Source: an uncultured bacterium
Lineage (GTDB): Bacteria > Bacillota_I > Bacilli_A > RF39 > UBA660
Direction: 5' to 3'
Assembly (NCBI GenBank): GCA_949296705.1
Contig: CASFOW010000074.1
Coordinates: 1 to 63,709, forward strand
DNA: 63,709 bases
A program made the translations under genes and the position numbers. Within the stretch, counting starts at the first letter, position 1, and each line of letters starts with the position of its first letter. Below the pieces are notes generated by a model. It worked only from the letters and a program-made list of their open reading frames with translations, was not told the origin of the DNA and searched no databases. Shown here piece after piece: positions 16,071 to 39,114 of the stretch.

Positions 16071-17282
16071 TTAGGCTAAAAGGCTTGCCTTAGCAACTGT
16101 AATTACTGGTACTACTTCACAGACATTAGCCTTATTCTCTTTATACACTTTAGAACGCTCTTCATCCATCTTAACTAAAGCAAAGGCTTCATCACTATAT
16201 TCACTATTTAACCAATAACATTTACTAGTTACTAAGTAATTAAATTTCTCATTCATAAACGTATAATAACCATTACTCGTAGTTAACTTATTTAACTCTG
16301 TATTTAGTCGATCATTATATTTTACATTTCCAATAATTTCATCGGACAAATTATCACGAATTAAGAAAGAACCTGTAACATCCTGGGAAATGATTTTAGT
16401 AACATCCTCAATAGTCAACGGATTAACTTCAACTCCCCAATCAGCGGTAATTGTATCAAAAACACTGGTGTATTCATCAAAATTCCCATTACCATAGCTA
16501 GAAAATAAATCAGGAAGCAATCTTACCGTAGTATCTCCAACCTTATTATCGACATCAATGACATGAGTCTTAATACATCCATTTCCTAATTGACTACAAA
16601 CTTCATTTTTTTGAATATTATATAGAATCATATTTCCTAAACTGAAATTCATATCTGTAGCATCATTAGTCGTCATATATTGTTCAGCTTTAACACTTAT
16701 TACAACTTGTAATGTCGACCTCATATGATAATCGGGATTTTCTTCCATTTTTTGTTTTTCTGCCGACTGAAATGCAAAAGCAGCATTTCCCCAATTACTA
16801 TCTAACTCATCATTACCGGCATCTAAAGGCCAAGAAACAGATACTTCTATTTGACTACTGTCTCCTTTGGCTAAAACAAAATCTTTACTCAATCCAATAT
16901 TTAAGTGGAAAGGAAAATCATGAGATAACTTATCTTCTAAAATATCTGCATCAACATTCGCATATTCATTATCCATTATACGAGCAGACTGAATAGAATA
17001 AGAAATTTGGGCATTAGAATCACCCATGTTATGAATTTCCACCTTTTCACTAACCGTTTCCATACCTGGATATATATCAGAAAGTGAAATAACAATATCA
17101 TTTGATACAACATTACTATCTTTTTTAAATTCAATTTGCCATGCCTGAACATCAATTTCAGTACCGACACCAGCTATACCACTATAAGCAAACCAAGCAA
17201 GAGTTATAGATATAAATGAAACCGCTACTAAAAACAATGATAACAGATTAAGTCTTGCATAAACTCTAAGACGCCTTTTCAT
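16071..17282 (-). CDS. TasA-like secreted protein with AWF signal motif
   Basis: A 403-residue exported protein, last gene of the SipW/McrB-like unit. A hydrophobic segment near residues 13-34 ends in ITLAWFAYSG, the same AWF motif found in the paralogues at 24-38 kb. Then comes GTEIDVQAWQIEF and ISLSDIYPGMETVSEKVEIHN, the PGxxxxxxxxxxN pattern of TasA/camelysin proteins. The C-terminal half is unlike known families and has several Cys residues that may form disulfides. ATG 17282 sits 6 bases after GGGGAG; ATG 17288 directly abuts it. It begins 20 bases after the signal peptidase gene, so it is probably a substrate of it. Confidence 0.72.
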   Translation of the reverse strand: MKRRLRVYARLNLLSLFLVAVSFISITLAWFAYSGIAGVGTEIDVQAWQIEFKKDSNVVSNDIVISLSDIYPGMETVSEKVEIHNMGDSNAQISYSIQSARIMDNEYANVDADILEDKLSHDFPFHLNIGLSKDFVLAKGDSSQIEVSVSWPLDAGNDELDSNWGNAAFAFQSAEKQKMEENPDYHMRSTLQVVISVKAEQYMTTNDATDMNFSLGNMILYNIQKNEVCSQLGNGCIKTHVIDVDNKVGDTTVRLLPDLFSSYGNGNFDEYTSVFDTITADWGVEVNPLTIEDVTKIISQDVTGSFLIRDNLSDEIIGNVKYNDRLNTELNKLTTSNGYYTFMNEKFNYLVTSKCYWLNSEYSDEAFALVKMDEERSKVYKENKANVCEVVPVITVAKASLLA

Positions 17283-17302
17283 ATGCATCTCCCCTTTTTC
17301 CT

Positions 17303-17860
17303 TTAACTCTTACTTCTTCTTCTTTCCTCTTTCTCTAACAATGCAATAATCACTTCAGATCCTACTATATATAAAATAGGAATAACAACAAAGACAAACA
17401 TTCCAATTGGTGTACCAATAACCCCATAAATAAACGATAGAATAGTAGCTTTAGCTTGAACAACTCCATATAACTGATCTTCATACACAATAGGATCTTC
17501 AATCAAGTTAGCTAGTCCTTTAGTATGAAATATGTAATTTCCATCTTGATCCTGTTCAATATCTACTACTTGGTGAGTAACAACTTTATCTTTAAAAGTA
17601 CCACTTCTTCCTAAATAACTAATCGTATCTCCTTTTTTAATATCTTGAGGTTCTACTTCCTTGGCAATTAACACATCGCCAATTTCATACTTAGGGGTCA
17701 TACTCCCTGTTACAACCGTAAATAATCGATAATCAAAAAAAGAAATCCGATTATTACTAAATCGTTGTAAAAATACGACCAAAACAAACAAGATAACAAA
17801 AACCGAAACTACAACATTTAAAATATTTTTAATAATCTTGAATAACTTCTTCCCCTTCAT
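17303..17860 (-). CDS. sipW: SipW-type signal peptidase I
   Basis: Serine protease of the ER/archaeal S26B type that cuts signal peptides of TasA-like proteins. The N-terminal membrane anchor covers residues about 13-33. The nucleophile is in VVTGSMTPKYEIGDVL (Ser53). The catalytic His is in KVVTHQVVDI, and TKGLANLIEDP matches the conserved box 4 (usually TKGDAN). A C-terminal membrane segment and a basic tail follow. The 185-residue length is normal. The start overlaps the stop of the DUF2357-like gene by 4 bases (ATGA), so translation is coupled. The TasA-like gene at 16071 follows directly. Confidence 0.92.
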   Translation of the reverse strand: MKGKKLFKIIKNILNVVVSVFVILFVLVVFLQRFSNNRISFFDYRLFTVVTGSMTPKYEIGDVLIAKEVEPQDIKKGDTISYLGRSGTFKDKVVTHQVVDIEQDQDGNYIFHTKGLANLIEDPIVYEDQLYGVVQAKATILSFIYGVIGTPIGMFVFVVIPILYIVGSEVIIALLEKEERRRSKS

Positions 17861-18990
17861 TGTAAATAATCCTGTACCCTTTCCAAGTACTCATCTAAAG
17901 CACTCTTAAATTTCTTCTTCACATCATCTGCCCCAGCAAAACGTTCATTCCTTTCACGATTTATTTCTTGGGCAATAATTTCTAACAATTCTTCATCTGT
18001 AATCTTATAACCACTACTTAATAATAGAGAAACAACCCTTCTAATTTCCTCTGTTAGTAAAATCACTGCATATTTTGCCATATTCTTTTTTTGTTCTCTT
18101 TTATAAGAAGTCATAGAATCCATTACAAAATAATCAATCAGAAAAGAATGATCAATAAATCCTCTCAAGATATCACTACTATTCTGATCAGGATTTTCTC
18201 TATCATCTTCCTTCTTTTCTAAATCATAATTATTTAAAAACTCCCATAAAGAAACAGCGATTCTAAAATTAGGATTCTTTAAAATTAAATTAGTCTTCTT
18301 AATTGGTGGTTTAATAAAAGAAACATGCGCCTTATTAAGGGCTTTTATCATCTCACTTTTTTCCCAACTACCTAAATATTCTTTTACACGCTTCAATCTT
18401 AATTTAATTGCTTTTAATTCTTCCTTTAATTCATCATCAATTTTAGAAATAGGTAATGACTCAGAGGTTAATTTCAAAGCAATACTTACCTTTTCATTAG
18501 GGGTAGTAGTAGAAGCAGAATATTCTAATAATTTATTATCTCTTAATTCAAAATTATCTAATAATTTTTCTTTACTCGCTATAAAATTGTCCATATCATG
18601 AACTAAAGTATACAAAAATACATTCTCATAAATATTATAAGTCTCTTCGTTTCTAACGTTTAAAATCTTATTAGGTTCAACATCAGAAGTTTTCTTATCT
18701 ACTTTATTAATATATTCTGTATGCTTAGATAAATTTTTAATACTAGCTACCGTAATATTTTTAGCTCTTTCTACCTTAACTATCTCTTCTTCTCTAATTA
18801 ATGCGATTTTAGGAATTCTAACAATGATATCAATAAATGGGCAAGCTTCTTCGATTTTATCAAGCCAGTCGAAAGACAGTAATTTTCCTGAATAGTCTGA
18901 CTTAAAATATAGATCTGATTCTATTTTTTTTAGAAACATCTGACTTTTTTTCTTACGTTCTTCACTATCCACTGAATTAAAGTCATTCAT
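17857..18990 (-). CDS. DUF2357-like protein paired with a McrB-like ATPase, no nuclease domain seen
   Basis: A 377-residue soluble protein. The central part NVRNEETYNIYENVFLYTLV (residues about 112-131) resembles the DUF2357 signature, where an R-x-x-N-x-E-T-x-x-x-x-E-N pattern precedes a helical bundle. DUF2357 proteins usually accompany McrB-like GTPase/ATPase genes and carry a C-terminal PD-(D/E)XK nuclease. Here I see no PD...ExK pattern and the C-terminus is purely helical and charged. The McrB-like gene ends 17 bases upstream, and sipW overlaps the end by 4 bases. The family assignment is from pattern only; the role as an adaptor or partner of the ATPase is inferred. Confidence 0.6.
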   Translation of the reverse strand: MNDFNSVDSEERKKKSQMFLKKIESDLYFKSDYSGKLLSFDWLDKIEEACPFIDIIVRIPKIALIREEEIVKVERAKNITVASIKNLSKHTEYINKVDKKTSDVEPNKILNVRNEETYNIYENVFLYTLVHDMDNFIASKEKLLDNFELRDNKLLEYSASTTTPNEKVSIALKLTSESLPISKIDDELKEELKAIKLRLKRVKEYLGSWEKSEMIKALNKAHVSFIKPPIKKTNLILKNPNFRIAVSLWEFLNNYDLEKKEDDRENPDQNSSDILRGFIDHSFLIDYFVMDSMTSYKREQKKNMAKYAVILLTEEIRRVVSLLLSSGYKITDEELLEIIAQEINRERNERFAGADDVKKKFKSALDEYLERVQDYLQ

Positions 18991-19007
18991 TGATACACAC
19001 CCCTATT

Positions 19008-20534
19008 CTATATACTCTTTTTAACTGTCTGTAAATAGGCAATACATTCTTTCATTACGCCTTTACCAAAATTCTTATTTAAATAAGCGATAAAAGGATC
19101 AACCTCATCTCTAATAAGAGCAACACTTAACTGATCAAATTTTCTTAGTATCTTCTTAGCAATAAAATAATCAATTGCATCCATTTCACTACCGCCACAA
19201 GCAACATAGACAGGAACAAAAACATTTAACTGTTTCATAATACGATTACCAAAGGCAATTCTAAAATGTTCAATTACATAATTATCAATTGCCGCTACAT
19301 CAGCTAATCCTTTATCTGAAACTGGAAATTTTTCTGTTGCTTCTTTAAATAAAGCTTCTAAGAAACTAGCATTAATATTAACCGATTCTTGTTCACGACA
19401 TTTAAATGGTAAAACTTTCGTATTGATGTCAATAGGAGTTGCACGGTCATATACTTTATCTGTTACCATAAAGGTAGAATCATCATTATTAATTGTACCA
19501 ATATACCATAAATTCTGAGGAAGTTTAATTTTACCATTAATAATCTTTTTCGGATCATTAGGCCAAGCACTAGCTACAAGATCGACGATCCATTCATCAC
19601 GATTAGGCATTTCAAGAATAGAAAGTAAATCCGCAAAATAATATTCAACACGAGCTAAGTTCATTTCATCCAAGATAATGGTATGTACATCATCATCAAA
19701 AGTAGCTTCATAAATCTCGCCTAAGGCTCTGGTTTCATTAAACTTCTTAGTAAACTCATTAAAATATCCCAAGAAATCAGATTTTTCACGCCATGAAGGT
19801 TCAACAGATGCGACACAGGAATCTTTACTAACAAACTTACCCCAAGCATAAGCAAGGGAAGTTTTACCAGTTCCAGATATACCTTGTAATATAATTAATT
19901 TACCACAAGCTAACCCAGCAAAGAAAGGACGTAAAATATCAAAATCATAATATAATTTTAATTGACTAGCTGAAAAACAACGAAAAGCATCGATAAGTTC
20001 TTCCAAAGTAAAGTTATTATCATAACGCTTAATCTTATAGTTAGCATACTTCTCATCCAAAGCTGTCAATTTAGGGAAACGAATACCTTGAATACCAAGA
20101 TCTTCCTCTTCTTCAGAATTATTAGTATTATCTTCTTGTTCCTCTTCAGGATTAATCCCCAATTGCGATACTTTCATTGCCATAATCTCTTCTTTTTCTT
20201 TCATTAATTTTCTAACTTGTTGATTTAAATTACCTATTTCATTTAGCAATTCATCTTTAGTAAAATTACCCTTTACTTTACGAATAATCTTTCTGATTAA
20301 AAAGAAGAATAAAAGTCCAAGTAAAATAATTACAATGGCTATAATAATAACAGTCATTGCCACAAAGAGTTGCTCATTACCATTAAAACTATCTTTATAG
20401 CTTTCAATAACTTTACCATATGATCCAAAGTCAAACATCTGCTTAATGCCATCAATAATGCCCTTGAATATCATAAAACATCCATCAATAAACACTGAAA
20501 TAAATTCGTAAAAAAATCTAAAAAATGTATTCAT
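19008..20534 (-). CDS. Membrane-anchored McrB-like AAA+ ATPase
   Basis: A 508-residue protein. Two N-terminal hydrophobic segments (about residues 8-28 and 57-82) are followed by a coiled-coil (FTKDELLNEIGNLNQQVRKL), an acidic linker and a McrB-type AAA_5 domain. Walker A is LQGISGTGKTSLAY near residue 217, then PSWREKSDFLGYFN. Walker B is IILDEMNLARVEYYFADLLS near 288. Sensor 1 is YIGTINNDDSTF, and DKVYDRATPI follows as in McrB relatives. No DNA-recognition domain is seen. McrB proteins normally power modified-DNA restriction and are cytoplasmic. Membrane anchoring and a setting between two SipW peptidases argue for another task. ATG 20534 lies 2 bases after the upstream stop. Confidence 0.87.
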   Translation of the reverse strand: MNTFFRFFYEFISVFIDGCFMIFKGIIDGIKQMFDFGSYGKVIESYKDSFNGNEQLFVAMTVIIIAIVIILLGLLFFFLIRKIIRKVKGNFTKDELLNEIGNLNQQVRKLMKEKEEIMAMKVSQLGINPEEEQEDNTNNSEEEEDLGIQGIRFPKLTALDEKYANYKIKRYDNNFTLEELIDAFRCFSASQLKLYYDFDILRPFFAGLACGKLIILQGISGTGKTSLAYAWGKFVSKDSCVASVEPSWREKSDFLGYFNEFTKKFNETRALGEIYEATFDDDVHTIILDEMNLARVEYYFADLLSILEMPNRDEWIVDLVASAWPNDPKKIINGKIKLPQNLWYIGTINNDDSTFMVTDKVYDRATPIDINTKVLPFKCREQESVNINASFLEALFKEATEKFPVSDKGLADVAAIDNYVIEHFRIAFGNRIMKQLNVFVPVYVACGGSEMDAIDYFIAKKILRKFDQLSVALIRDEVDPFIAYLNKNFGKGVMKECIAYLQTVKKSI

Positions 20535-20536
20535 AA

Positions 20537-22609
20537 TCAATCACACCAATAACTTCCAATCTTTTCATTAATATTATCTACCATAATTCTATTTTCCAAT
20601 TCTTTAAAAGCAGAAATACCATCCTCCTTATCAATAGAATTCTTATTAACTACAATATACTCCATCATTTGAACAATGGATTCATTAATCACTGAGATAT
20701 CATTATCCTCTAAATCAACCATAAATTTATATCCAGCTTTCATTAGTTTAATAATATTCTTTTTATACTCTGTTAGATAATCATAACGAACTAAAATTAT
20801 TACATTACTTTTAGCATAATCATCTTCAAACAATTTAAATATTTTGATTAATTTATTTACTTTACCATATAAACTTTCTCTTACATATAAAATATACTTC
20901 TTATTAAAATCCCCGGCAAGCATATCTTTTAGTAGTTGTAATAATAGTAAATTAATTTGTACTTCTAATTTATCTTCCGCAATGATTCCATCACTGTAAG
21001 TCTTATCGATAATATAGTCACTATATACTTTACTGAAGGAAACATTATGATCTAAATCTGATGCAAAGACATTCTTCTTAGAAGTCGAGCTATATTTCAA
21101 TACAAACATATTAGTTTCTAACTTTTCCATTATATATTTTAATATTGCTCTATACTTATTCTGAACTCTAATGATTTTATTTACGGTATTATTCAATAAC
21201 TCAGCACTGTAATCAATAGGAGTCATGTACTTCAATATCTTATTCTTATAAAATTCTCTTTTATCCGCAACTGTTGTCATATTTTTGTAAGCGTGTTCCA
21301 AGTAACAAATTAGTTGTAGCATGTTAGAATATTTATCTACTTTTTCTTCGAATTTTTTATCGCTACCTCGATACTTGGCAACTAATTCTTTGGCTTCATT
21401 ACTAATGGCAGTACATAATCTAGTATTGACGTTTCTACCATCATATTCAACATTGACATCACCACAATAATTATAATATTTACCATCTATATAAGCTTCT
21501 ACCAACATCTCTCGAATCGTAGCTTCGTTAATTTTTAACTCATCTTCCTCGTTTAGAATATCTAAAATTTCATTAAGTTCTTCTTCTTTCATGAACATAG
21601 CTTTATCAATAATATTCTTAAACTTTCGACGTTTTTTGTATAATAACTCTAAGTTTTCTTCAACTACATTTTCACTGACTTCTTCATCATCAGTAACATC
21701 TTCTTCGTTGTTTTCAGTATCTATTACGATTGGTTCAACCGTTGAACGATTGAGATTATCTATATCTTCTTTATCTACTTTCACCGTTCTAAAATATAGT
21801 GTCTTATCAAAATCTTCATTCACTTTTAAAGTAGTTTTAGATAAAGATTCATTGTCTACCTTTGGATCAGAAATAGATTCCGGTTTCAAATCCTCACTAG
21901 GATCTTTTTCAACTTCGTCATTTGGACTTAATACTATCTCTGATGTGTTAATTGTCGCTTGAAGTGGAGTAGTTGTTGTTTGAGGAGAAGAGATCTCCTT
22001 CCTTTTTTCAAGCCAATTATTGACCTTATCATATAATGATTTTCCTATATCTTTCCCCTTATCAAGAACAAATTTTACTATTAAATCTATCTTCTTCATA
22101 GAAACACTACCATTCGTATTTTTTTTAAAAACTAAATTTACTATATATAAGGTGATAATTAAAGCGATAAGCACATAAGGATTAAATATTGTTGCTCTAA
22201 ATATACCAAAAGCAGGTAAAATTTTAGTAACTTTTCCGACAATTTGTTCCTTTACAATGGGGTCATCTTTGGAACTATTCGCATCCCCTCGTGTTGTATA
22301 TACATCTCCATAAGCAGAAACAACACGATGAGTAATGTAATTTTCTCCTTCTTTATAAGTAACAATATCCCCTAATTCAATATCATTAGCATACTTTACA
22401 ACAATCCAATCTCCTTTTTCAATAGCTGGGGACATACTTCCTGATTGAACTTCAAATAAAGAATAACCAAAAAAACTAGAACGATCATTGCCTAAAATAT
22501 TAACTTGAACAAAGCCATAAATCGAAATTAATAATACAATACCAAATATAACAATTAACGTATTCATCGCAATATTAAGTATCTTGCCAAGTAACTTTTT
22601 ATTCCTCAC
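20537..22609 (-). CDS. SipW-type signal peptidase fused to a large cytoplasmic domain
   Basis: A 690-residue fusion. Residues 1-165 form a complete SipW-type peptidase: membrane segment 12-34, nucleophile in VQSGSMSPAIEKGD (Ser58), catalytic His in YITHRVVSA (His94), box TRGDANSSKDDP, and a second membrane segment near 143-163. The remaining about 525 residues should lie in the cytoplasm: an acidic Ser/Thr/Pro linker, then an all-helical domain of unknown family. A late stretch (KLMKAGYKFMVDLEDNDIS) faintly recalls EAL-type beta/alpha barrels, but this is weak. GTG 22609 is chosen because GGAAGTG lies 5 bases upstream and a promoter occupies 22647-22675. SipW proteins are usually about 190 residues. 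Confidence 0.85.
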   Translation of the reverse strand: MRNKKLLGKILNIAMNTLIVIFGIVLLISIYGFVQVNILGNDRSSFFGYSLFEVQSGSMSPAIEKGDWIVVKYANDIELGDIVTYKEGENYITHRVVSAYGDVYTTRGDANSSKDDPIVKEQIVGKVTKILPAFGIFRATIFNPYVLIALIITLYIVNLVFKKNTNGSVSMKKIDLIVKFVLDKGKDIGKSLYDKVNNWLEKRKEISSPQTTTTPLQATINTSEIVLSPNDEVEKDPSEDLKPESISDPKVDNESLSKTTLKVNEDFDKTLYFRTVKVDKEDIDNLNRSTVEPIVIDTENNEEDVTDDEEVSENVVEENLELLYKKRRKFKNIIDKAMFMKEEELNEILDILNEEDELKINEATIREMLVEAYIDGKYYNYCGDVNVEYDGRNVNTRLCTAISNEAKELVAKYRGSDKKFEEKVDKYSNMLQLICYLEHAYKNMTTVADKREFYKNKILKYMTPIDYSAELLNNTVNKIIRVQNKYRAILKYIMEKLETNMFVLKYSSTSKKNVFASDLDHNVSFSKVYSDYIIDKTYSDGIIAEDKLEVQINLLLLQLLKDMLAGDFNKKYILYVRESLYGKVNKLIKIFKLFEDDYAKSNVIILVRYDYLTEYKKNIIKLMKAGYKFMVDLEDNDISVINESIVQMMEYIVVNKNSIDKEDGISAFKELENRIMVDNINEKIGSYWCD

Positions 22610-22646
22610 TATATCACTTCCATTAGCTTCCCTACTATACATAATA

Positions 22647-22675
22647 GTATCATACATAGAATTTTTTTTCAACAC
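22647..22675 (-). promoter_or_regulatory. Promoter of the SipW-fusion/McrB unit
   Basis: TTGAAA (22675-22670) and TACTAT (22652-22647) with 17 bases between. It follows the terminator of the upstream unit, so 22609-16071 is a separate transcription unit. Confidence 0.6.
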
Positions 22676-22692: not shown

Positions 22693-22736
22693 AAGAAAAA
22701 AAAAGATACCGAGATTCATCAATATCTCAGTATCTT
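22693..22736 (-). terminator. Strong terminator of the 26445-22762 unit
   Basis: A 13-bp stem, AAGATACTGAGAT with ATCTCGGTATCTT (one G-U-type pair), followed by ten Ts on the minus strand. Confidence 0.92.
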
Positions 22737-22761: not shown

Positions 22762-24240
22762 TTAACTAACGGTCCAAGTTCCATCACTATATGTTGCGGT
22801 CTTAGAATCTCCACCATCGGTAAATGTAAATTCAGTAGTATAATCTTTTGGAATAATAAATCCTTTATTAGAAGTGTTATATTGAACACCAGCTGCTATA
22901 GCTTCTTCAGATAAAACAACCTCACCTGCTGCTTCATAACTGAAAGTAGTACCAGTTATATCCGTAGAAGGACCATCATATCCACCACCGAAATCAGTTT
23001 CTTCATATCTTTCTTTAGTGAATCCGAAATTAACAGAGATTTGTTTTCCTAATTGAGCGAAATCATAGTTATCAATATCTTGACCTTCAATCCAAATATA
23101 TACTCTAAGTTTAGTAATACTATTTGGTGCTAAAGTCATAAATTGAACTCTATTTTCACCTTTATTATTCTCTTTAATTGAATCTGTGAAGTAAGGGAAG
23201 TCTACAAGTTTAGCACCTGTTCTTACACCTTCTCCATCTTCTTCTTCTAATAAGTAATCACTATAAGTCATCGTGTTTTCTGTATAAGTGTTGTAGTCAC
23301 CATCGTAGATATTAACATTATCAGCTACAACTAAATCTCTACTAATAGCAAACGTTTTATACCCTGTTCCATTAGTAACTTCAGTACAAGTGGTATCCCC
23401 AGTAGAATCATAAGAATCTTTAGAAGTTACATCAGTACCATCATCATTTCTAGGTAAACATGATTTATCATACCAATTAATAGCGTTAGTTACATGATCT
23501 GTATCATTTGGTTCCCAGATTTGAGCATTACGACAAATTCCAGTAACACCATTTTCTTCATCGTCAGCACAAGTAATACCTGTAACAACTGAAGGTTCAA
23601 CAGATCCATCACCAATAACACGTCCTAATTGAACGATACCAACACGAACTGAGTTTTCAATACCAGTATTTTGAACACCACCAGTATCAGAAACTTTAAC
23701 TTCTGAATTATATGTTAAATAAACAGCTTCTTCATTTAAAGGATTATTTTCCTCATAATATGCAGCTCCTGATAAATTCTTGATAAATAAGTCAAAAGCA
23801 ACATATCCTTTACCTTCAAGAAATTCTCCACTTGTATCTTCTGTCTCAGTATAGTTATTAACTCGGCTAGCTAAAAATCTATATCCACCTGGTACAGCAG
23901 TTAAACTAGCTTTTTCATATAATTTCATTCTTGAAGCTTCTGCATCCATATCTCCTACTGAAGACATAGGAATTAAACCATCATCAGCCCAAGTATTGGC
24001 ATTATTTAGATATGCAGTAGCCGTTTTTGGATTTAAACTATAACTCCAATTTTCGCCATCCATAGATAAGAATAAACCTTCAGTAGTAGCAATATCGATA
24101 TCGAACTTATCTACACTAACTGTTTTCATACCGATAAACCAGGCATAAGTCGAAGCAGATAGCAAAATAGCGAACAAGCAACATATCGCAACTAGATTTC
24201 TTATTTTTTTACTTCTTTTAGCGTTGTGTTTCTTTCTCAT
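22762..24240 (-). CDS. TasA-like surface protein A3 (paralogue of 35446-36951)
   Basis: A 492-residue exported protein. After a basic start, a hydrophobic segment ends LSASTYAWFIGMKTVSVDKF (residues about 24-43), the locus-wide signal motif. The body has the conserved blocks LFLSMDGENWSYSL, ARPM-free region ASRMKLYEKASLTAVPGGY, GYVAFDLFIKNLSG, NPLNEEAVYL, IENSVRVGIVQLGRV, IWEPNDTDHVTNAINWY and LAPNSITKLRVYIWIEGQD. Cys residues near IC and KSC of the IWEPNDT block may pair. A short C-terminal domain ending in FTFTDGG repeats follows. AAGGAGG precedes the ATG. It is third in its operon and corresponds to B3 in the other cassette. It is probably a fibre or matrix subunit cut by SipW. Confidence 0.75.
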   Translation of the reverse strand: MRKKHNAKRSKKIRNLVAICCLFAILLSASTYAWFIGMKTVSVDKFDIDIATTEGLFLSMDGENWSYSLNPKTATAYLNNANTWADDGLIPMSSVGDMDAEASRMKLYEKASLTAVPGGYRFLASRVNNYTETEDTSGEFLEGKGYVAFDLFIKNLSGAAYYEENNPLNEEAVYLTYNSEVKVSDTGGVQNTGIENSVRVGIVQLGRVIGDGSVEPSVVTGITCADDEENGVTGICRNAQIWEPNDTDHVTNAINWYDKSCLPRNDDGTDVTSKDSYDSTGDTTCTEVTNGTGYKTFAISRDLVVADNVNIYDGDYNTYTENTMTYSDYLLEEEDGEGVRTGAKLVDFPYFTDSIKENNKGENRVQFMTLAPNSITKLRVYIWIEGQDIDNYDFAQLGKQISVNFGFTKERYEETDFGGGYDGPSTDITGTTFSYEAAGEVVLSEEAIAAGVQYNTSNKGFIIPKDYTTEFTFTDGGDSKTATYSDGTWTVS

Positions 24241-25733: not shown

Positions 25734-25746
25734 AATACACTCCTTC

Positions 25747-26445
25747 TTAATCCTCCGCACCGTCAGAGCTAAAATTCATATGAGCTTTGAATTCCCCACC
25801 AAGAATATTATCTGTACATTCTAGATCAGTGCCTTCAATCCACATCACTATCGTGTAGCGATTAATACTACCTGGCTGAAAATCAGTAACCTGCTCCTCC
25901 ATCACCAAATTATCCTCTAAAAAAGGTACAGTACCTGTCTCAGCTTCCCCAGTTGCCGATAATTTAGCATAAGTAACAGCTTCTTCATCGTTCTTATAAA
26001 TCCTAATTCTCACAGCTTCGTCAACATTTTTGATAACATCTTCGATTACAACTCTACTAACATAACTAACAGCTTTATCACCAGTATTTTCAATCAAGAA
26101 AGTATAAGCAAGATAATTGTCTCCATTATGCGATCCTAACATAGCGTTCCCTAAGTCATCAGGTAGCCATTTATATGATATGCTATCAAAAGTATCGGGA
26201 GCAGGTGCTAATAACTCCGACCGATATACTTTATACTCAGGATCATCATAAATAATAAGGCCATCATCAAAGTATAAGTTTTTATCTAGTGTTATACTAA
26301 AATTTCCGCGATTATAAATAATACCCATCACAAAATAAAAAATAAGTAAAATTAAAATACCAAGTAGTAAAACTACCACCAGAATTCGACTCATCTTTTT
26401 TTCACGTTTAAGCTTCTCTGCATTTAGTTTAATTCTACCTTTCAT
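25747..26445 (-). CDS. Membrane-anchored TasA-like protein A1 (paralogue of 38419-39114)
   Basis: A 232-residue protein with a strongly basic cytoplasmic start and one membrane segment (about residues 20-42), then an extracytoplasmic domain. It lacks the AWF motif and may stay anchored. The domain starts GIIYNRGNFSITLDKNLYFDDG, includes LAYTFLIENTGDKAVSY and ends WIEGTDLECTDNILGGEF, the WIEGxDxxC motif seen in TasA-like relatives. First gene of its operon, 62 bases after a near-consensus promoter. GGGGT precedes the ATG. Order, length and sequence match B1. A role as base or anchor of the A2/A3 subunits is inferred. Confidence 0.72.
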   Translation of the reverse strand: MKGRIKLNAEKLKREKKMSRILVVVLLLGILILLIFYFVMGIIYNRGNFSITLDKNLYFDDGLIIYDDPEYKVYRSELLAPAPDTFDSISYKWLPDDLGNAMLGSHNGDNYLAYTFLIENTGDKAVSYVSRVVIEDVIKNVDEAVRIRIYKNDEEAVTYAKLSATGEAETGTVPFLEDNLVMEEQVTDFQPGSINRYTIVMWIEGTDLECTDNILGGEFKAHMNFSSDGAED

Positions 26446-28150: not shown

Positions 28151-28151
28151 A

Positions 28152-31700: not shown

Positions 31701-32272
31701 TATAAATTTTCTACGTCCCCCTCTAAATTAGTAAATAGGGCTAAGTTTTCTTCGGTACTAGTTAGATATAAACCATAAATCGTATGATAATCGCCATTAA
31801 AAACCCCTTTAAAGCCATTTAATGCTGTAAATAAATTCACAGTATCCGACATTACATTTACCCGATCAACACTATCATAAAGATGATTTCCGTACTCTTC
31901 TACATAATACGTATTTCCCTCAAGTTTATAATTTACTCCTGTAGTTGAATCATATCCAAAAATACCCTGATTAAGTACAATGTCATTACTTAAAGTAAAG
32001 TAAGTATCACTATAATCGTTAGTCTTTAACATCGATGAAAAATAAGCAAGCTCACTACCATTTGAAATAATATAAGGATCAGTTTCAGTACCACTACCAC
32101 TATGATAAGCATTAGCTACCGTACCATCCCATACTGAAATATCATAAAGTGGATTTCGATTTTTAAATCTCGCAAAAGACGGAGCTAATATAGAAACACA
32201 TAAGATTAATATACATAAAATAATTAGATAGCTAAACTTGTTGATTTTAGAAAACTTCTCAAATTTAAACAT
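28715..32272 (-). CDS. Giant surface protein with GLUG-like and Ig-like repeats
   Basis: A 1185-residue protein, first in its operon. An N-terminal membrane segment (residues 13-32) ends in APSFARF, then GSGTETDPYIISNGSELAYFS, a start typical of beta-helix surface proteins. GLUG-like repeats appear at about 110-430 (GGLVGQTNG, AAGIIGSIS, GGIVSTID). Two Ig-like repeats of about 110 residues follow (FTSSVAFSIEQVD ... VYDTTKADV; TPFTIEAQDDLSGIQTIQYYI ... DNYGDFTYINSDYI). The C-terminal third is beta-rich and unassigned. No LPxTG, SLH or LysM anchor is seen; the N-terminal segment may hold it. Possibly the adhesin of the system (inference). Confidence 0.78.
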   Translation of the reverse strand: MFKFEKFSKINKFSYLIILCILILCVSILAPSFARFKNRNPLYDISVWDGTVANAYHSGSGTETDPYIISNGSELAYFSSMLKTNDYSDTYFTLSNDIVLNQGIFGYDSTTGVNYKLEGNTYYVEEYGNHLYDSVDRVNVMSDTVNLFTALNGFKGVFNGDYHTIYGLYLTSTEENLALFTNLEGDVENLYVSNSVVYGGNLTGGVASNATSSSFSNVIFSGNVIGKDMPVSKSISNSLEDLSFTVTNDTKNEAISLDLPVIEGMITSKKLSGKVTIQGDGIIQINGNEVDGDFEIDLTSLQTLSVTYSSTTTATFTLTDLTYQIDSSLSTTAGIVALGHQVSLTNTVNKGNIYGSTISGGLVGQTNGCTINQSYNTGTIQSANLAAGIIGSISQSEQVNISKTYHTGELIGTTVGGIVSTIDENPGNIQIENSFNASNHPTLHTINHSTVTVNHLLYTTSGCVNGSTSGELIPISLDELKNKTYLITTLGFNEYVSSEDVNINSMNVWLYDEGIPILYIDDLANPLARIHVANYSWDNFTDSLNNIKFTSSVAFSIEQVDSLRPFKEVYYYISEESTPLIKTDMETLNWTPYTGIIELKTDGIYVIYAKVVDMNNHVSYLNTDVIVYDTTKADVMLTLEQNTWSEYKSSLDRIYIDDKTPFTIEAQDDLSGIQTIQYYITNQELTTTELESIEAENWVVYSSDAYVTTPGKNIIYVRVTDNYGDFTYINSDYIYYSGYQNTSLTAGQGISGDKIYITDSSSITMNFQYTDDLTYQENYTHNLISNILLPVNTKITLIDQHTKKIYSYKIMTSEDIFHYQDSCSDENCSKYATYPFTLFSEVGKENNEFFTENYTGNINESFTVMVDFSNTEMTSDYENVVISLELRDQDKMVIPTLKDSIKSFNIYTSTNIIPYIQSDFTSTIEYNSNSVNSIFLDIGLLQESKDNIPVNNTIYENMDLGLGIKLVDSEGNIVSKEHLKNMKFVLDNQIYTPESDGIVRINLNSGLVNTNKTLTIETSRGDLDLASGTYFLKLYSYASYDGVYSNLTSSEISITVSVNGSIASNVEKFDVQMDNVIKYSDKLIDLGINYTGGLTNPNVRVSLYKKEQLTAYNQDYVLVDLADYLTNSLVSVSDNVYYLFSNLTANNSITLNTKELDCGGYLFIFELYDGNNRISSYEKKFIVRY

Positions 32273-32481: not shown

Positions 32482-32508
32482 AAAAAACTATGTCCAATTA
32501 CATAGTTT
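32482..32508 (-). terminator. Terminator of the 39114-32498 unit
   Basis: Stem AAACTATGT/ACATAGTTT followed by TTTTTTC on the minus strand, overlapping the stop of the last gene. Confidence 0.8.
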
Positions 32509-34099
32509 CTGCTTTACTTTCCGAATTGATAATTCGCTCTACCTGAGCAACAAACCATATCTGATCCATATGAATACTACTTTTTTCAATTTTGGTTACT
32601 CTTAATACTAAGTTAATCTTATTTGTCAATAAATTAAGTAAATCTGGATTTAAATCATCTACAGTAATATTGATATTATTCAAGCGATAGCGATTAACAA
32701 TAATTCTTGGAACATCAACATCTTGAAAAATAGGAACCCCACTAATAATAATATTCGTTGCATTCATCGCAAACAAATCAAAATTATCACTATATTGAAT
32801 AATGGCATCATAATTATCTAAACCATATACTTTTTGTATCACCAACTTTTTAAAATAATCATAACTATAATACAAATTTAATACATCAGCAACCGTAATA
32901 GTATTAGAAATGGATTTTATTACTCGATCCTTAAAATATTCAACATCATATTTTTTAAATAATTCATATATTTCTTTAGCCAACATAACAGATTCTGATT
33001 TCAAACTTTTCAAATCTTTTGAAAAATAGAAATTCCCGATATGAGTACCAAAAATTTTCTTATTAATTTTTTCTAGTTCGGCTTCTTTTTTCGCAATTTC
33101 TATTTCGATATTCTTTAAACCCTTATATTCTTCTTTTAAATCTAATAGTTTACTATATTCATCTCTAAAGTCTTTAAAGATTGGATAAAATTCATTATAG
33201 TTTCTATACTCCTCAACGTTTGCAAGTAATTTTTCGAGAGAAGCACAAGCATCATCAATATCACTATCTGGAGAAACCAAAGTCTCAAATGCTTGTTTAC
33301 GGACTTTACTTTCTTCTAAATATTGTTCAATATCGATTTCTCCACTCTTAGCTTTTGTGAGAATCTCACCAATCGTCTCACGATTAGCAAATTGAATATC
33401 AATATATAAGGAATGGATTTTCTCCAAACATATCGCGTAATTCGCAATACCATTTTTCTCCATAGCTTCTTTTTGTAATCGATTAATATAGGCATTTAAT
33501 TTTTTCTCATGGACGCGAATTAACTTCCTGAAGCTAAGTTCAACATGCTCAATAATCTCGGGATTAATCCAATAGATCTGCTCAAATACTTCGGCTACTC
33601 GGTCATAATCACCACTATTTTTTCGCCTAGCCTCTAAAAAGACTTCCATATACTCATGAACATAACAAGTATAAGTAAAATCATCAGCAGTTAAAACGAT
33701 ACCAGCCAATTCAAATTTATCTAAAAAAGAATTGATAATGTCATTTAAGGATTTAAAATTAAATGTGTAATAATTAGAAATCTGATATAACAAAGAATCA
33801 AAGCCCATTTTTTCAACATAAGTATTCGTAGGATTTAATAGAAACTTGACATATTCTAAATTTTCTAATTTTTCGTTTAAGTGATTATCCTTATCTGGTT
33901 CAACTATATCGAAAGATTTAGCTTTAGCTAATAAATAATTTCTAGTACTACTCCGATAATTATTGTATTTATCTATTGTCTCATCAATAAACTGATTAAC
34001 TTTTTTTCGATTGGTCTTAGTCTTCGTCGGCATTACGGAAATATATTCTTTTTTATTTTCAATATCTTTATTTATAAATTCCAAAAAATTGCTATTCAT
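32498..34099 (-). CDS. Unknown cytoplasmic coiled-coil protein of the surface locus
   Basis: I do not recognise this 533-residue protein. It has no signal peptide or membrane segment. It is largely helical and charged, with a likely coiled coil at about residues 300-350 (LLDLKEEYKGLKNIEIEIAKKEAELEKI). A C-terminal stretch with IIISGVPIFQDVDVPRIIVNRY and LVLRVTKIEKSSIHMDQIWF suggests a beta-containing end domain. ATG 34099 overlaps the stop of the 47-codon gene by 8 bases and has GAGGA 8 bases upstream. It is last in the cassette B operon, so it is the intracellular partner there, as the McrB-like, DUF2357-like and SipW-fusion proteins are in the other unit. Confidence 0.7.
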   Translation of the reverse strand: MNSNFLEFINKDIENKKEYISVMPTKTKTNRKKVNQFIDETIDKYNNYRSSTRNYLLAKAKSFDIVEPDKDNHLNEKLENLEYVKFLLNPTNTYVEKMGFDSLLYQISNYYTFNFKSLNDIINSFLDKFELAGIVLTADDFTYTCYVHEYMEVFLEARRKNSGDYDRVAEVFEQIYWINPEIIEHVELSFRKLIRVHEKKLNAYINRLQKEAMEKNGIANYAICLEKIHSLYIDIQFANRETIGEILTKAKSGEIDIEQYLEESKVRKQAFETLVSPDSDIDDACASLEKLLANVEEYRNYNEFYPIFKDFRDEYSKLLDLKEEYKGLKNIEIEIAKKEAELEKINKKIFGTHIGNFYFSKDLKSLKSESVMLAKEIYELFKKYDVEYFKDRVIKSISNTITVADVLNLYYSYDYFKKLVIQKVYGLDNYDAIIQYSDNFDLFAMNATNIIISGVPIFQDVDVPRIIVNRYRLNNINITVDDLNPDLLNLLTNKINLVLRVTKIEKSSIHMDQIWFVAQVERIINSESKAETM

Positions 34100-34235
34100 T
34101 ATTCTCTTCCTCATTTTCTATTTTATTATTCTCTAAATACTGTAGGAAATCCGTTATATGATCATAAAGTTCAATAAGTTCCTGAAGACTTAATAATGAC
34201 AAATCAAAATCAACTACATCATTTTCTTTTTTCAT
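34092..34235 (-). CDS. Small acidic protein, 47 residues
   Basis: A short gene with excellent AAAGGTGAT ribosome site 3-4 bases before ATG 34235. The protein starts MKKENDVVDFDLSLLSLQEL and is strongly acidic, ending in an Asn/Glu-rich tail. Its end overlaps the start of the 533-residue gene (ATGAATAG), so translation coupling is likely. It may be a small partner of that protein. No family is recognised. Confidence 0.68.
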   Translation of the reverse strand: MKKENDVVDFDLSLLSLQELIELYDHITDFLQYLENNKIENEEENNE

Positions 34236-34258: not shown

Positions 34259-35362
34259 TTATTCCGTATAATAGCCCTGCGTATTCTTTAAGAAGCCAAG
34301 CGAAACAGTGATATCCGCTCCTTCTGAATCAGTCTCTAAACTATCAATATCCTGTCCTTCAATCCATATATATATTCTCGCTTTAGTAACTCCGTCTGGG
34401 ACTGTGAATAAAGGATTACTAAAATCCTCTTCTGTAATAGTCTCCTGTAATTCAAAATAGTTCATATCCATATAAGGAGAACCGGAAACAGTATGATCAA
34501 CGATTATCGGTCCTCCGGCCTTTCGGTAGGCATAAGTATCAAAAGGCTGACCATCAATTAGGTTTATGCCATATTTGATTGCTCTTTCAATAGAAAGATC
34601 TGTATGCTCAGTACTTCGAGGTTCATAAATAATAGAATAACAATTATTATTACAACTGATATTTTGAATCGTCGTTGTATCAGTGTTCATAGGCACAGAA
34701 CCAATTTTTACAATACCAATTCGTAATGAATTAAACAATCCCATCATTTCTTCATTCGCATCTTCATTTATAGAGACCTGAGTAATGTAATCAAAGAATA
34801 ATTCATCGGCAACTGGAGAATCAGAATCATTTTTGAAAAATACATCAAATGCCAAGTAACGGTTAAATGGTCTAACCTCAAGTTCTTGATCCATATTAGT
34901 AGTTAAAAAGCCATTTTTCTTATCTAAATTCTTATATCGAACTCCACCACTATAAAACATATTAAAGTATGGACTATTGTGATTGGTAATCCCATTCGAT
35001 GAAACAGGAATTAATCCGCCTTCGGCCCACTGACTTAAATGATTAGGGTAAGTATCCGTTAACTCATTAATCAATGTATCATAGGACACTTCAACGACGG
35101 TATCAAAATTCACACCATCTAACGAGATAGATAAACCACTATTTTTACCTACACTCATCGTAAAAGTTTTAATTCTTACATTTAAGTTTGTCGTAAACCA
35201 AGCATAGGTAGAAATAATTAGTAATATTCCTACTAGAAAAACGACTGCAATAATTACTTTCTTATTTTTATTGATTATTTTTTCTTTAAGACGCCATTTA
35301 TTTTTCTTGGTATTACTAGTCTTAGTTGCTTTAATTGCATTGCTTGTTAAATTTTTACCCAT
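34259..35362 (-). CDS. TasA-like surface protein B4
   Basis: A 367-residue exported protein with a long basic, lysine-rich cytoplasmic start (about 40 residues) before the hydrophobic segment VIIAVVFLVGILLIISTYAWF. The familiar blocks are present in shorter form: LSISLDGVNFDTVVEV, AEGGLIPVSSNG, YLAFDVFFKND, LRIGIVKIGSVP, IIYEPRSTEHTDLSIERAIKYGI (equivalent of IWEPNDT) and GVTKARIYIWIEGQDIDSLE. It lacks the C-terminal extra domain of B2/B3. ATG 35362 fits the AAAGGGTGAT site; other ATGs at 35368 and 35371 are too close. It has no counterpart in cassette A. Confidence 0.72.
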   Translation of the reverse strand: MGKNLTSNAIKATKTSNTKKNKWRLKEKIINKNKKVIIAVVFLVGILLIISTYAWFTTNLNVRIKTFTMSVGKNSGLSISLDGVNFDTVVEVSYDTLINELTDTYPNHLSQWAEGGLIPVSSNGITNHNSPYFNMFYSGGVRYKNLDKKNGFLTTNMDQELEVRPFNRYLAFDVFFKNDSDSPVADELFFDYITQVSINEDANEEMMGLFNSLRIGIVKIGSVPMNTDTTTIQNISCNNNCYSIIYEPRSTEHTDLSIERAIKYGINLIDGQPFDTYAYRKAGGPIIVDHTVSGSPYMDMNYFELQETITEEDFSNPLFTVPDGVTKARIYIWIEGQDIDSLETDSEGADITVSLGFLKNTQGYYTE

Positions 35363-35445
35363 TATCATCACCCTTTAAAATAAAGGAAAAGAATACACTA
35401 TCCTTTATGAATAAGATGGAAAAACTAATGATATAAACTTTCTAA

Positions 35446-36951
35446 TTATTGTTCATTTGCGAAAGTCCAATTAATACCATCTTCGTTTAAAGTAGCCACT
35501 TTTTTCGTCCCGTTATCAGTAAATGTAAATGTATCATACCATTTAGGAACAGCAAATTGAGCGGTTGCGGTATCGAAAGTCACTTGTGGATTGTCACTAA
35601 TGACAGTACCTGTATTGGTGTAAGCAACATTCATTGTCTTCACTACTTCCTCTGGTAACTCTGGATTGCCATCATAATCAACATCTTCACCATAATATCT
35701 TTGTTTCGTGAAACCAAATTGAATAGAAATTTCTTTTCCTAATGATGCAAAATCATAATTATCAATATCTTGTCCTTCAATCCATACATATACTCTAACT
35801 TTAGTGATACTGTTAGGCGCCAAAGTCATAAATTCTGGTCTATTAGCACCGGCTATATTTTTCATTGTATCTGTAAAATAAGGGAAATCTACTAATTTAT
35901 AATTTTGTTTAGTATCAGAAGATGCATTTATATAAGTATCATAGTCGATTGTATTCGCTGTATAAGTATTATATTTAGGACCATCATAGATATTTACGTT
36001 ATCTGTTACCCCTAAATTTCTACTAACTGCGTAAGTAGGTAGGCTAGAATATAAACCTGTATCCTCATCTGGTAAAATTGCTTGACAAGTACTAGCTGTA
36101 GTATAAGAAGCAGGATCATTTACAGCTAATCCACCCGCATTTCTAATTAAACAAGATTTATTATACCAATTAAGGGCATTTTGTACATGCTTGGTATCAT
36201 TAGGCTCCCAGATTTGGGCATTACGACAAATACCGGTAACATCATTTTTGGCATTTCCATCAGCTGTCAATTCTTTATCTGAGCAATTTATAGCCGTAAT
36301 ATCATTAACAGCAATTGTCTCAGTTGCGCTGACACGTCCTAATTGAACGAACCCAACACGAACAGAATTTTCAATTCCAGTATTTTCAACTCCATTTAAA
36401 GATACTTTAACACTAGATTCTGGTAACAAATAGATTGCCTCTTCGTTTAAAGGATTATTTTCTTCATAATATTCAGCTCCTGATAAATTTCTGATAAATA
36501 AATCAAAAGCAACATATCCCTTTCCTTCAATAAACTCTCCATGACCATTATCTATAGTATAATTATTAACTTGATTAGCTAAAAATTTATATCCACCAGT
36601 AACAGCAGATAAACTAGCTTTCTCATACAACTTCATCCTTGAAGAAGTAGCATCTATATCTCCTACAGAAGATATAGGGATTAACCCATCAGGGGCAAAA
36701 GTGTTAGCATTGTTTGCATATACTGGAGTATCCTCATCCGTTGGTGATATAGAATAACTCCAAGTTTGTCCATCCATAGATAGAAATAATCCTTCGGTAG
36801 TTGCGATGTCAATATTAAATGTATTTACCCCGACAGTTTTCATTCCTACAAACCACGCATAAGTTGAAGCAGATAATAGGATAGCAAACATACAACAAAC
36901 AACTAGTAATCTAAAAATTTTTTTTCTTCGTTTAGTACCGATATTTGACAT
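35446..36951 (-). CDS. TasA-like surface protein B3 (paralogue of 22762-24240)
   Basis: A 501-residue exported protein. Signal segment LLVVCCMFAILLSASTYAWF, then VGMKTVGVNTFNIDIATTEG. It shares with A3 the blocks LFLSMDGQTWSYSI, SSRMKLYEKASLSAVTGGY, EFIEGKGYVAFDLFIRNLSG, NPLNEEAIYLLPESSV, ICRNAQIWEPNDTKHVQNAL and EFMTLAPNSITKVRVYVWIEG. The C-terminal module again follows after ELP and ends in FTFTDNGTKKVATL. GGAGG precedes ATG 36951. It is third in cassette B. Length and order match A3. Confidence 0.75.
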   Translation of the reverse strand: MSNIGTKRRKKIFRLLVVCCMFAILLSASTYAWFVGMKTVGVNTFNIDIATTEGLFLSMDGQTWSYSISPTDEDTPVYANNANTFAPDGLIPISSVGDIDATSSRMKLYEKASLSAVTGGYKFLANQVNNYTIDNGHGEFIEGKGYVAFDLFIRNLSGAEYYEENNPLNEEAIYLLPESSVKVSLNGVENTGIENSVRVGFVQLGRVSATETIAVNDITAINCSDKELTADGNAKNDVTGICRNAQIWEPNDTKHVQNALNWYNKSCLIRNAGGLAVNDPASYTTASTCQAILPDEDTGLYSSLPTYAVSRNLGVTDNVNIYDGPKYNTYTANTIDYDTYINASSDTKQNYKLVDFPYFTDTMKNIAGANRPEFMTLAPNSITKVRVYVWIEGQDIDNYDFASLGKEISIQFGFTKQRYYGEDVDYDGNPELPEEVVKTMNVAYTNTGTVISDNPQVTFDTATAQFAVPKWYDTFTFTDNGTKKVATLNEDGINWTFANEQ

Positions 36952-36979
36952 AAATTACCTCCATACTTATCAAATATTT

Positions 36980-38404
36980 TTATTTGTTTTTAAATTCCCA
37001 AACCACTTCACCATTTTGTTCAGTACCGGTCGCTACTTTGGCTTGACCGTTATCCGTAAAATTAAAGGCTCTAAACCAGTTTGGAATTGTAAATTCATTA
37101 GCATCATCATCAAAGGTTATTCTAGAATCATCGGTAGTTACATTACCGGTATTTGTATAAGGGACTTTCCTTGTTCTTACAACATCATCTGGTAATTCTG
37201 GATCACCATCATAATCGATATCTTCACCAAAAAATCTTTCTTTTGTGAATCCAAATGATACGGAAATCTTCTTACCTAATGATGCAAAATCATAGTTATC
37301 GATATCTTGTCCTTCAATATACACATAAATTCTTACTTTTGTTATACTGTTAGGTGCTAAAGTCATAAATTCAGGTCGCTCAGTACCAGTCAGATTTTTC
37401 ATCGTATCTGTAAAATATGGAAAAGCATATAATTTTCCATCTGTAGGAGTAGCACTGATTGATGATTGATAACCGTTATAATCACTACCGTCGTATACAT
37501 CAACATTATCTTCAGCATTAATCACACCACCTACAGCATAAGTAGTATAAGCTTGTCCATCTTTTATTAAATTACAATCTCCTGCGAATGAATCCTCTGA
37601 AGTCACATCTGTTCCAGTTGTTTTACGAGCTAGACAAGATGTTGTATACCAATTAATTGCATTATTTACATGTTTGGTATCGTTAGGTTCCCATATGGTA
37701 GCTACTCTATCGCAAATAGAAGTTACAGCACCACCAGAGTTACACTTAATTGCTCGAATTTCAGAACCATCTTCGGTTGGAGTAGTAGCAACAACACGTC
37801 CAATTTGAGCAAAGGCAACACGAACTGAATTTTCAATCCCAGTATTAACCGCACCACCTGAACTAGAAATTGTAACTTCCGACTCAGGAACTAAATAAAT
37901 TGCTTCTTCATTTAAGGGGTTGTATTCTGGATAATATTTATTTCCAGATGAATTCTTAATAAATAAATCAAATGCCACATACCCTCTTGCTTCAGTAGCG
38001 CCTTTGTTTTCTACTTCACTTGCCATCAATCGATAACCACCAGGCGAAGCAGTTAAACTACCTTTTTCATAAAGAGTCAACCTAGAAGCATTAGAATCAA
38101 TTCTACCTACTGAAGACATTGGAACTAAATCAGTCCAACTATTGGTGGTATCAGCCCCAACAACATCAGGGTCATTATAGTTATCACTATTAATCGTAAC
38201 AGTATCAGACCAGTCTTTTCCGTTAAGAGAAAGAGACAAACTATCGGTAGAAGCTATCGTAACATCAAAAGTCTCGACATTAACTGTTTTCATCCCAATG
38301 AACCAGGCATAAGTAGAAACTAGTAGTACAATCCCAAATAAGCAACATACAACTACTATCTTTTTAGTTCGATTCTCCCTCTTTTTATTTCTTTTCTTTT
38401 TCAT
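36980..38404 (-). CDS. TasA-like surface protein B2 (paralogue of 24261-25733)
   Basis: A 474-residue exported protein. Signal segment VVVCCLFGIVLLVSTYAWF, then GMKTVNVETFDVTI. The conserved order is LSLSLNGKDWSDTVTI, SSVGRIDSNASRLTLYEKGS, PGGYRLMASEVENKGATEARG, VAFAQIGRVV, IWEPNDTKHVNNAINWY and LAPNSITKVRIYVYIEGQD, closely matching A2. The terminal module is preceded by ERFFGEDIDYDGDPELPDD, shared with A2. AGGTG precedes the ATG. It lies 14 bases after B1. Probably a major subunit together with B3 (inference). Confidence 0.75.
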   Translation of the reverse strand: MKKKRNKKRENRTKKIVVVCCLFGIVLLVSTYAWFIGMKTVNVETFDVTIASTDSLSLSLNGKDWSDTVTINSDNYNDPDVVGADTTNSWTDLVPMSSVGRIDSNASRLTLYEKGSLTASPGGYRLMASEVENKGATEARGYVAFDLFIKNSSGNKYYPEYNPLNEEAIYLVPESEVTISSSGGAVNTGIENSVRVAFAQIGRVVATTPTEDGSEIRAIKCNSGGAVTSICDRVATIWEPNDTKHVNNAINWYTTSCLARKTTGTDVTSEDSFAGDCNLIKDGQAYTTYAVGGVINAEDNVDVYDGSDYNGYQSSISATPTDGKLYAFPYFTDTMKNLTGTERPEFMTLAPNSITKVRIYVYIEGQDIDNYDFASLGKKISVSFGFTKERFFGEDIDYDGDPELPDDVVRTRKVPYTNTGNVTTDDSRITFDDDANEFTIPNWFRAFNFTDNGQAKVATGTEQNGEVVWEFKNK

Positions 38405-38418
38405 AAACTACACCTCAC

Positions 38419-39114
38419 TTACTCCTCAACAAATTCAGAATTAAAATCCATATAGAATTTAAACTCGCCACCAACCAAATCATCAGTACAGTCTGGATCA
38501 TTGCCTTCAACCCAAATTACAATCGTATACTTGTCTAGATCACCAGGTTTGAAACTAGCAACATGTCCCCGCATAACTAAATCATCAGAAGAAAATGGAA
38601 CAGTCCCCTCCTCTGCTTCACCATCCTTCCCTATTTTAGCATAAGTAACGTATTCATCATTTCTATAAATTCTAATTCTTAACGCTTCATCAACATTTTG
38701 AACAACATCGTATAAGACAAATTCACTCCAATAATCAGCAATCATTTCTCCAGTATTTTCTACATAAAAAGTATAAGCAAGATAATTTTCTCCATTGTGT
38801 GAACCGCCCGTACTATCGTTCAAGTTATCAGGCAACCAATTAACAGAAATATTAGTAAATCTGCTAGGGCCTTCAAAAGTCAATTCAGATCGATATGTTT
38901 TATCCCGTGGATCATCATAAACAACAAGACTTCTTTCGTAATGTAAATTTTCATCTAACGTTATACTATAATTCCCCCTGTTATAAATAATACCGGTAGC
39001 GAAATATAAAAGTAAAAGTAATAATAAAAGGAGTAGTAAAAGGACAAATACCCTCTTTTTTATTTTTTTTTCTTTTCTAACCTTCTCACTAACAAGTGTT
39101 ATCTTTTCCTTCAT
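38419..39114 (-). CDS. Membrane-anchored TasA-like protein B1 (paralogue of 25747-26445)
   Basis: A 231-residue protein, first of cassette B. A basic cytoplasmic start is followed by a leucine-rich membrane segment (VFVLLLLLLLLLLLLYFATG), then GIIYNRGNYSITLDENLHYE as in A1. The blocks SHNGENYLAYTFYVENTGE, VVQNVDEALRIRIYRNDE and VEGNDPDCTDDLVGGEF align with A1 end to end. ATG 39114 has AAAGGGG upstream; the frame extends to 39138 without a better site. It is transcribed from the promoter at 39174-39201. Confidence 0.72.
   Translation of the reverse strand: MKEKITLVSEKVRKEKKIKKRVFVLLLLLLLLLLLLYFATGIIYNRGNYSITLDENLHYERSLVVYDDPRDKTYRSELTFEGPSRFTNISVNWLPDNLNDSTGGSHNGENYLAYTFYVENTGEMIADYWSEFVLYDVVQNVDEALRIRIYRNDEYVTYAKIGKDGEAEEGTVPFSSDDLVMRGHVASFKPGDLDKYTIVIWVEGNDPDCTDDLVGGEFKFYMDFNSEFVEE

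Follow-up and report, generated by a model that had tools for sequence, protein, structure and literature searches.

We analysed a stretch of 63,709 nucleotides (hereafter the window) from an uncultured bacterium of the GTDB lineage Bacillota_I, Bacilli_A, RF39, UBA660 (contig CASFOW010000074.1, assembly GCA_949296705.1), which carries between 39138 and 16071 a locus of SipW-type signal peptidases, TasA-like secreted proteins and a McrB-like AAA+ ATPase. Coordinates are those of the window, and on the minus strand unless noted. In the order of transcription, the locus comprises a first fibre cassette, a protein of 538 amino acids (aa), a giant secreted protein, two smaller secreted proteins, a pseudo-SipW, a second fibre cassette and a tightly packed unit of five genes: a SipW-type peptidase fused to an EAL-like domain, the ATPase, a DUF2357 protein, a second SipW-type peptidase and a 405-aa TasA-like protein. 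All the genes named in a first-pass annotation, made from the letters alone, were recovered as open frames at the positions used here; its inventory had missed the conserved 538-aa protein (32498-34114).

The ATPase gene (19008-20540) encodes a membrane-anchored, coiled-coil, NxD-type McrB-like AAA+ nucleoside triphosphatase (NTPase), with a hydrophobic segment and a conserved heptad-like stretch. Its Walker A (GISGTGKTS) and NxD (GTINNDDSTF) motifs are intact; Walker A, Walker B and NxD are conserved across the aligned ATPases, and NxD is followed by D or E in every one examined. McrB was the only match of the family profile in the PDB (E 6e-5), consistent with the earlier assignment. The neighbouring gene (17857-18990, 377 aa), proposed to be DUF2357-like, indeed exceeded the Pfam cut-off of that family (38.0 bits, cut-off 23.3), and is of the McrC N-terminal type. 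It had no match to any nuclease family in Pfam, an alignment with 44 relatives contained no conserved acidic or Lys nuclease residues past position 249, and a search of its profile against the PDB returned nothing relevant. Relatives from other families are mostly 485-861 aa long, with long charged helical C-terminal tails. Judged by these motifs and domains, the pair derives from McrB/McrC, is of the NxD type and lacks a nuclease domain.

Two of the three proteins resembling archaeal/endoplasmic reticulum (ER)-type signal peptidases exceeded the cut-off of TIGR02228 (archaeal/ER-type signal peptidase I; 51.85 bits), with 77.3 and 73.2 bits, and the third was weakly similar. The curated cut-off of the SipW equivalog NF046067 (190 bits) was not reached (65.9 and 55.7 bits). 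Only the fused protein (20537-22675, 712 aa) has the complete set of what we take to be the SipW catalytic residues (Ser, His and both Asp): Ser80, His116, Asp131 and Asp137 are kept in all its homologues. The stand-alone peptidase (17303-17860), previously considered the active one, keeps Ser53, His96 and the second Asp (Asp122), but has Leu116 in place of the first Asp, a position mostly taken by Ile or Leu in its relatives. The third protein (26699-27232) had been called dead, rightly so: it lost every catalytic residue, yet it is conserved in about 50 loci.

The fusion was also seen in the first-pass annotation, with its non-peptidase part left unexplained; this part now has a predicted EAL-like fold. 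A model of the last 344 residues, built from an alignment with 46 relatives, had a predicted local distance difference test (pLDDT) value of 86. For model residues 154-337 (20561-21112) all 50 VIA rows were EAL domains (Z 12-14.4; best 14.4, 3.0 Å over 174 residues), and FimX headed the Foldseek list. The fusion protein has no Pfam EAL match (PF00563). By hydropathy, the peptidase domains lie outside the cell, and the EAL-like domain, the ATPase and the DUF2357 protein inside. The EAL-like domain is fused to SipW in about 50 loci; about 25 of 75 instead encode it on its own, in a gene of about 325 aa immediately preceding that of the ATPase, and have SipW elsewhere. The fusion thus appears to tie the peptidase to the motor.

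We scanned for the ATPase in related genomes and kept 80 of 251 related stretches; the following counts use the loci that reach far enough. In 74 of 74 loci the EAL-like gene runs up to the start of the ATPase gene, which in 75 of 75 is followed by the DUF2357 gene; after the pair comes a SipW-type gene in 69 of 70, and a TasA-like gene follows in 62 of 62; the window's 405-aa protein (16071-17288) has counterparts downstream of the stand-alone SipW in relatives as well. Across 193 genomes of the order, the DUF2357 protein was found in 57, among them 36 of the 37 with the fibre subunit and 35 of the 36 with the EAL-like domain (Fisher p 4e-23 for the subunit; co-occurrence p-values were around 1e-22 overall, all ignoring relatedness). 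In a wider sample, the ATPase was present in 79 of 392 genomes, across many Bacilli families, and most neighbourhoods fetched from other families that have its full-length form show the order anchor, TasA-like, SipW, AAA, DUF2357, SipW. The proposal that the ATPase pair works in the SipW/TasA pathway is therefore strongly supported, both by a gene order conserved in dozens of genomes and several families of Bacilli and by the fusion of peptidase and adaptor. In two loci (L150 and L151) the anchor/TasA/SipW/AAA set occurs twice, complete, within about 15-17 kb.

The two fibre cassettes arose by duplication. The first consists of a membrane anchor (38419-39138, 239 aa), with a single N-terminal transmembrane (TM) segment and no SipW site, and subunit paralogues of 474 aa (36980-38404), 501 aa (35446-36951) and, more divergent, 370 aa (34259-35371). 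The second has an anchor (25747-26445; 56% identity to the first) and paralogues of 499 aa (24261-25760; 63% identity to 36980-38404) and 492 aa (22762-24240; 59% identity to 35446-36951). The five subunit paralogues form one family (23-63% identity), to whose C-terminal half both anchors are homologous. Their signals end in STYA-WF (as in 36980-38404) or similar, with an aromatic residue just after the likely cleavage site; an aromatic residue (P2') also follows the cleavage site of TasA (PMC10269814). A model of the 492-aa subunit (pLDDT 88) had the TasA fibre 8aur as its best VIA match (Z 5.5) and TasA 5of1 at rank 4 (Z 4.2), a predicted resemblance that is weak but specific. No protein matched the TasA/camelysin families in Pfam or exceeded the TasA family cut-off, TIGR04088 (SipW-signal) matched 3 of 70 proteins weakly, and profiles of the subunits and of the 405-aa protein found nothing relevant in the PDB. 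The smaller secreted proteins have SipW-type or single-TM N termini and resemble each other weakly. Of the ten TasA-like proteins originally claimed, then, what stands is a subunit family of five and two anchors sharing its C-terminal half, with TasA nearest to the one modelled member; the smaller proteins are only weakly alike, and none is above a family cut-off. The L112 homologue of one of these (the 180-aa protein at 28152-28694) matched the TapA model TIGR04087 with E 6e-7, under the cut-off.

In other families, genes with GGDEF or EAL domains, canonical or degenerate, share loci with the ATPase. In two loci (L157 and L162), the position that the EAL-like gene has in the window is taken by a degenerate GGDEF-EAL gene, immediately 5' of the ATPase. 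In a sample of 20 genomes of other families, picked before EAL was noticed, the first-listed ATPase had an EAL gene no more than 15 kb away in 16 (from several families); with the 1-8 EAL genes that each genome has, 1.2 such cases would be expected (random-position p about 3e-17, a statistic that ignores relatedness). In two of the 16 the genome's sole EAL gene is about 4-5 kb away from the ATPase, and two further genomes (G361 and G237) would count as positive with their second ATPase copy. Control by cyclic di-GMP (c-di-GMP) is plausible in these relatives.

Compared with the tapA-sipW-tasA operon of Bacillus subtilis, the locus has in common a dedicated archaeal/ER-type peptidase, secreted beta-rich subunits and WF after the likely cleavage site; the predicted subunit fold is nearest, though weakly, to TasA. 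It differs in its NTPase core, in some ten proteins that are substrates or anchors, and in the number of peptidases (several, of which one is fused and one dead), and its proteins reach no SipW, TasA or TapA family cut-off. To our knowledge, SipW/TasA fibres assemble passively, as donor-strand fibres, with no NTPase involved. McrBC systems, which are DNA/RNA restriction machines, likewise combine a McrB-like AAA+ NTPase with a DUF2357 activator; the pair in the window, in contrast, is membrane-tethered, has NxD instead of NxxD, and lacks a nuclease. The closest described system is CoCoPALM, to which a few sentences have been devoted, the topic being deferred to a later paper (PMC11090510). It has an NxD McrB-like NTPase with a TM segment and an FtsB-like coiled coil, a McrC-type DUF2357 partner, usually with a coiled coil, and neighbouring signal peptidases; the account names neither TasA-like fibres, SipW nor GGDEF/EAL proteins (PMC11090510). 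The locus matches it in the NxD motif, in the McrC-type DUF2357 partner and in the association with the signal peptidase family (the 69 of 70 loci above, and other families). The hydrophobic segment and heptad-like stretch of the ATPase may correspond to its TM segment and coiled coil, and the long charged helical tails of the DUF2357 relatives in other families resemble those described for CoCoPALM McrC homologues. The locus differs in its short DUF2357 protein and in the added EAL-like adaptor fused to SipW. The link between ATPase and signal peptidase is therefore not new. New are the EAL-like fusion domain, the proximity of GGDEF/EAL genes in other families, the weak match of the subunits to the TasA fold, and the restriction of the full catalytic set to the fused SipW.

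From these data we consider it rather probable that the locus is a CoCoPALM-type system serving the biogenesis of surface fibres, with an NTP-driven, membrane-tethered remodeller docked on the peptidase through the EAL-like adaptor. The SipW-type peptidases would mature the secreted TasA-like subunits, and the anchors of the subunit family would hold the fibre to the membrane. The McrB-like AAA+ ring, tethered to the inner face of the membrane, would be switched on by the nuclease-less, McrC-type DUF2357 protein. The ring may remodel membrane or cytosolic substrates of the pathway, be it the peptidase, pre-subunits not yet processed or the platform of anchors, and its NTP hydrolysis may drive export, processing, release or clearing. 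As adaptor, the EAL-like domain may bring the active SipW to the ring; it may derive from the GGDEF-EAL proteins found in relatives or be their equivalent. The gene set and its order, their conservation, the catalytic motifs, the lack of a nuclease, the fusion and the nearness of GGDEF/EAL genes in relatives are observed, and the EAL-like and TasA-like folds predicted; that a complex forms, that NTP drives remodelling and that a fibre is made, with energy-dependent assembly, release or control, is inferred. The comparison suggests a defence-type motor turned into a machine that builds or controls surface fibres. More tentatively, a McrBC-type motor may have left nucleic-acid defence for SipW/TasA fibres and become coupled to a c-di-GMP module, whose GGDEF-EAL partners in several Bacilli families would be reduced in this clade to a pseudo-EAL domain that joins the signal peptidase as adaptor. 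If so, the assembly of surface fibres would acquire both a supply of energy and an input for signals, and the CoCoPALM branch, so far unexplained, would have a function open to testing. Alternatively, the ring of ATPase and DUF2357 protein would not drive assembly and would act in quality control, as a dislocase that extracts from the membrane those pre-subunits that are wrongly inserted or not processed: the ATPase has a membrane tether and a coiled coil, peptidases adjoin the pair, and the pair has no nuclease. However, the operon contains no protease or other degradation partner, and we regard this alternative as unlikely.

Several results weigh against fibre biogenesis by a docked remodeller. 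The resemblance to TasA is weak, and a Foldseek search with the subunit model gave no match below 0.001. For the EAL-like domain, a local hhalign comparison of its profile with neighbouring EAL domains scored no better than a DUF2357 control, with a register that fits the fold; homology therefore rests on the predicted fold, and we claim none at the sequence level. In the source genome no EAL protein exceeded the cut-off, and the one GGDEF protein found has a degenerate motif, TDGNEF, so that c-di-GMP control is doubtful in this genome. Finally, some loci have the ATPase and DUF2357 genes, and neither SipW nor TasA-like genes nearby. In one subclade of the same family (L186-L192 and L198) the pair, mostly with a recognisable EAL-like gene, is accompanied by other single-TM surface proteins, and in a branch with the arrangement AAA-DUF2357-AAA it stands beside large secreted proteins.

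On the hhalign register, by eye, the EAL-like domain does not conserve the E of the EAL motif, the N or the later E. The domain thus appears to lack catalytic residues, and a phosphodiesterase role is unlikely. It might still act as a functional receptor for a second messenger and turn peptidase and ring on or off, in the way that pili and adhesins are controlled by the degenerate EAL proteins FimX and LapD. Like them it has an EAL-like fold in the setting of a surface appendage, with FimX among the top structural matches and GGDEF/EAL neighbours in relatives. Unlike them it is fused to a signal peptidase and has no sequence-level match; most metal and ligand residues appear lost in the alignment by eye, and the source genome offers neither a clear diguanylate cyclase nor an EAL protein, which makes a receptor improbable. 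An active c-di-GMP loop in the source genome was considered and rejected, given the single degenerate-motif GGDEF protein and the presence of GGDEF proteins independently of the locus: nearly all genomes of the order have them, with or without it. The protein with TDGNEF, the only GGDEF protein found in the source genome (L184, 1-1938), consists of an extracytoplasmic part, a TM segment and the GGDEF domain.

In the ATPase tree, the L186-L192/L198 group is nested among SipW-containing loci, so that loss or replacement is its best reading; the AAA-DUF2357-AAA loci form a separate branch. Since the exceptional loci keep the ATPase core, this core is the constant part, and SipW and TasA are its usual but not obligatory cargo. 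The first-pass annotation had held that the association would be accidental if the pair occurred without SipW/TasA genes and these without the pair. The former does occur, in the two groups just described; the latter hardly does within the order, 36 of its 37 subunit-containing genomes having the DUF2357 protein. Membership of the NxD McrB clade (PMC11090510) and a match of the ATPase domain, and of that domain only, to a PADLOC candidate-defence model would fit an anti-phage system (type IV restriction, CoCoNuT-like) placed next to surface genes by chance. This is very improbable: no nuclease was found in the DUF2357 protein, the fusion or the neighbours, the surface-gene context is constant, and the full-length form of the ATPase was not found on plasmids or phages, whose matches span the ATPase core only. 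Least probable of all is that surface genes and ATPase trio are separate systems in one permissive locus, as the trio without SipW/TasA in L186-L192 and L198 might indicate, against the near-perfect gene order in the scanned loci and in several families, the fusion and the overlapping reading frames.

Other arrangements of the core genes were observed as well. In L190 the EAL-like/AAA/DUF2357 core follows genes of cell division and cell wall (MraW methylase, PASTA penicillin-binding protein). The AAA-DUF2357-AAA tandem, found in L164, L167, L168, L174, L179 and L180, has mostly very large secreted neighbours (Glyco_hydro_3/Fn3, BspA-type leucine-rich repeats, WxL-interacting domain). In a third arrangement (L165, L166, L169-L171, L181 and L182), a SipW-type gene of 350 aa overlaps, or lies close to, the gene of a TM-containing AAA protein of 600-680 aa, with a very weak DUF2357 match at best; in several of these a protein with 12-14 TM segments and a large single-TM surface protein come next, and L169 adds an ABC ATPase and a weak beta-helix match. 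In L193 (8932-10968), L194 (9243-11337), L195 (8586-10646) and L199 (10346-12363), the EAL-like and DUF2357 genes form an isolated pair flanked by pheST and priA (annotated in L193), and no ATPase was recognised next to them.

The transcription units proposed for the locus fit the signals found around them. Two extended promoter-like sites, near-consensus (11/12) and preceded by TG, lie just 5' of the anchor genes: TTGACT-N16-TATAAT ahead of the first cassette (39174-39201) and TTGACT-N17-TATAAT ahead of the second (26511-26539); both are consensus matches only. A hairpin like that of an intrinsic terminator (22703-22736; 13 pairs and a T-run) separates the second cassette from the machine genes. 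Between the last subunit paralogue of the first cassette and the giant protein lies the 538-aa protein, which is of unknown family, has no TM segment and is kept in about 20 loci. The giant protein (28715-32272, 1185 aa) is conserved in the locus and has no Pfam match, so the beta-helix/Ig nature once ascribed to it finds no support there. It is followed by the 180-aa protein, which has a SipW-type N terminus, and by a secreted single-TM protein of 291 aa (27284-28159), conserved in the locus. Convergent to the five-gene unit, on the plus strand, a small secreted protein with a SipW-type N terminus (15075-15698) is conserved in many loci. Elsewhere in the window, and not linked to the fibre locus, the start of the gene at 6291-7055 resembles a prepilin peptidase.

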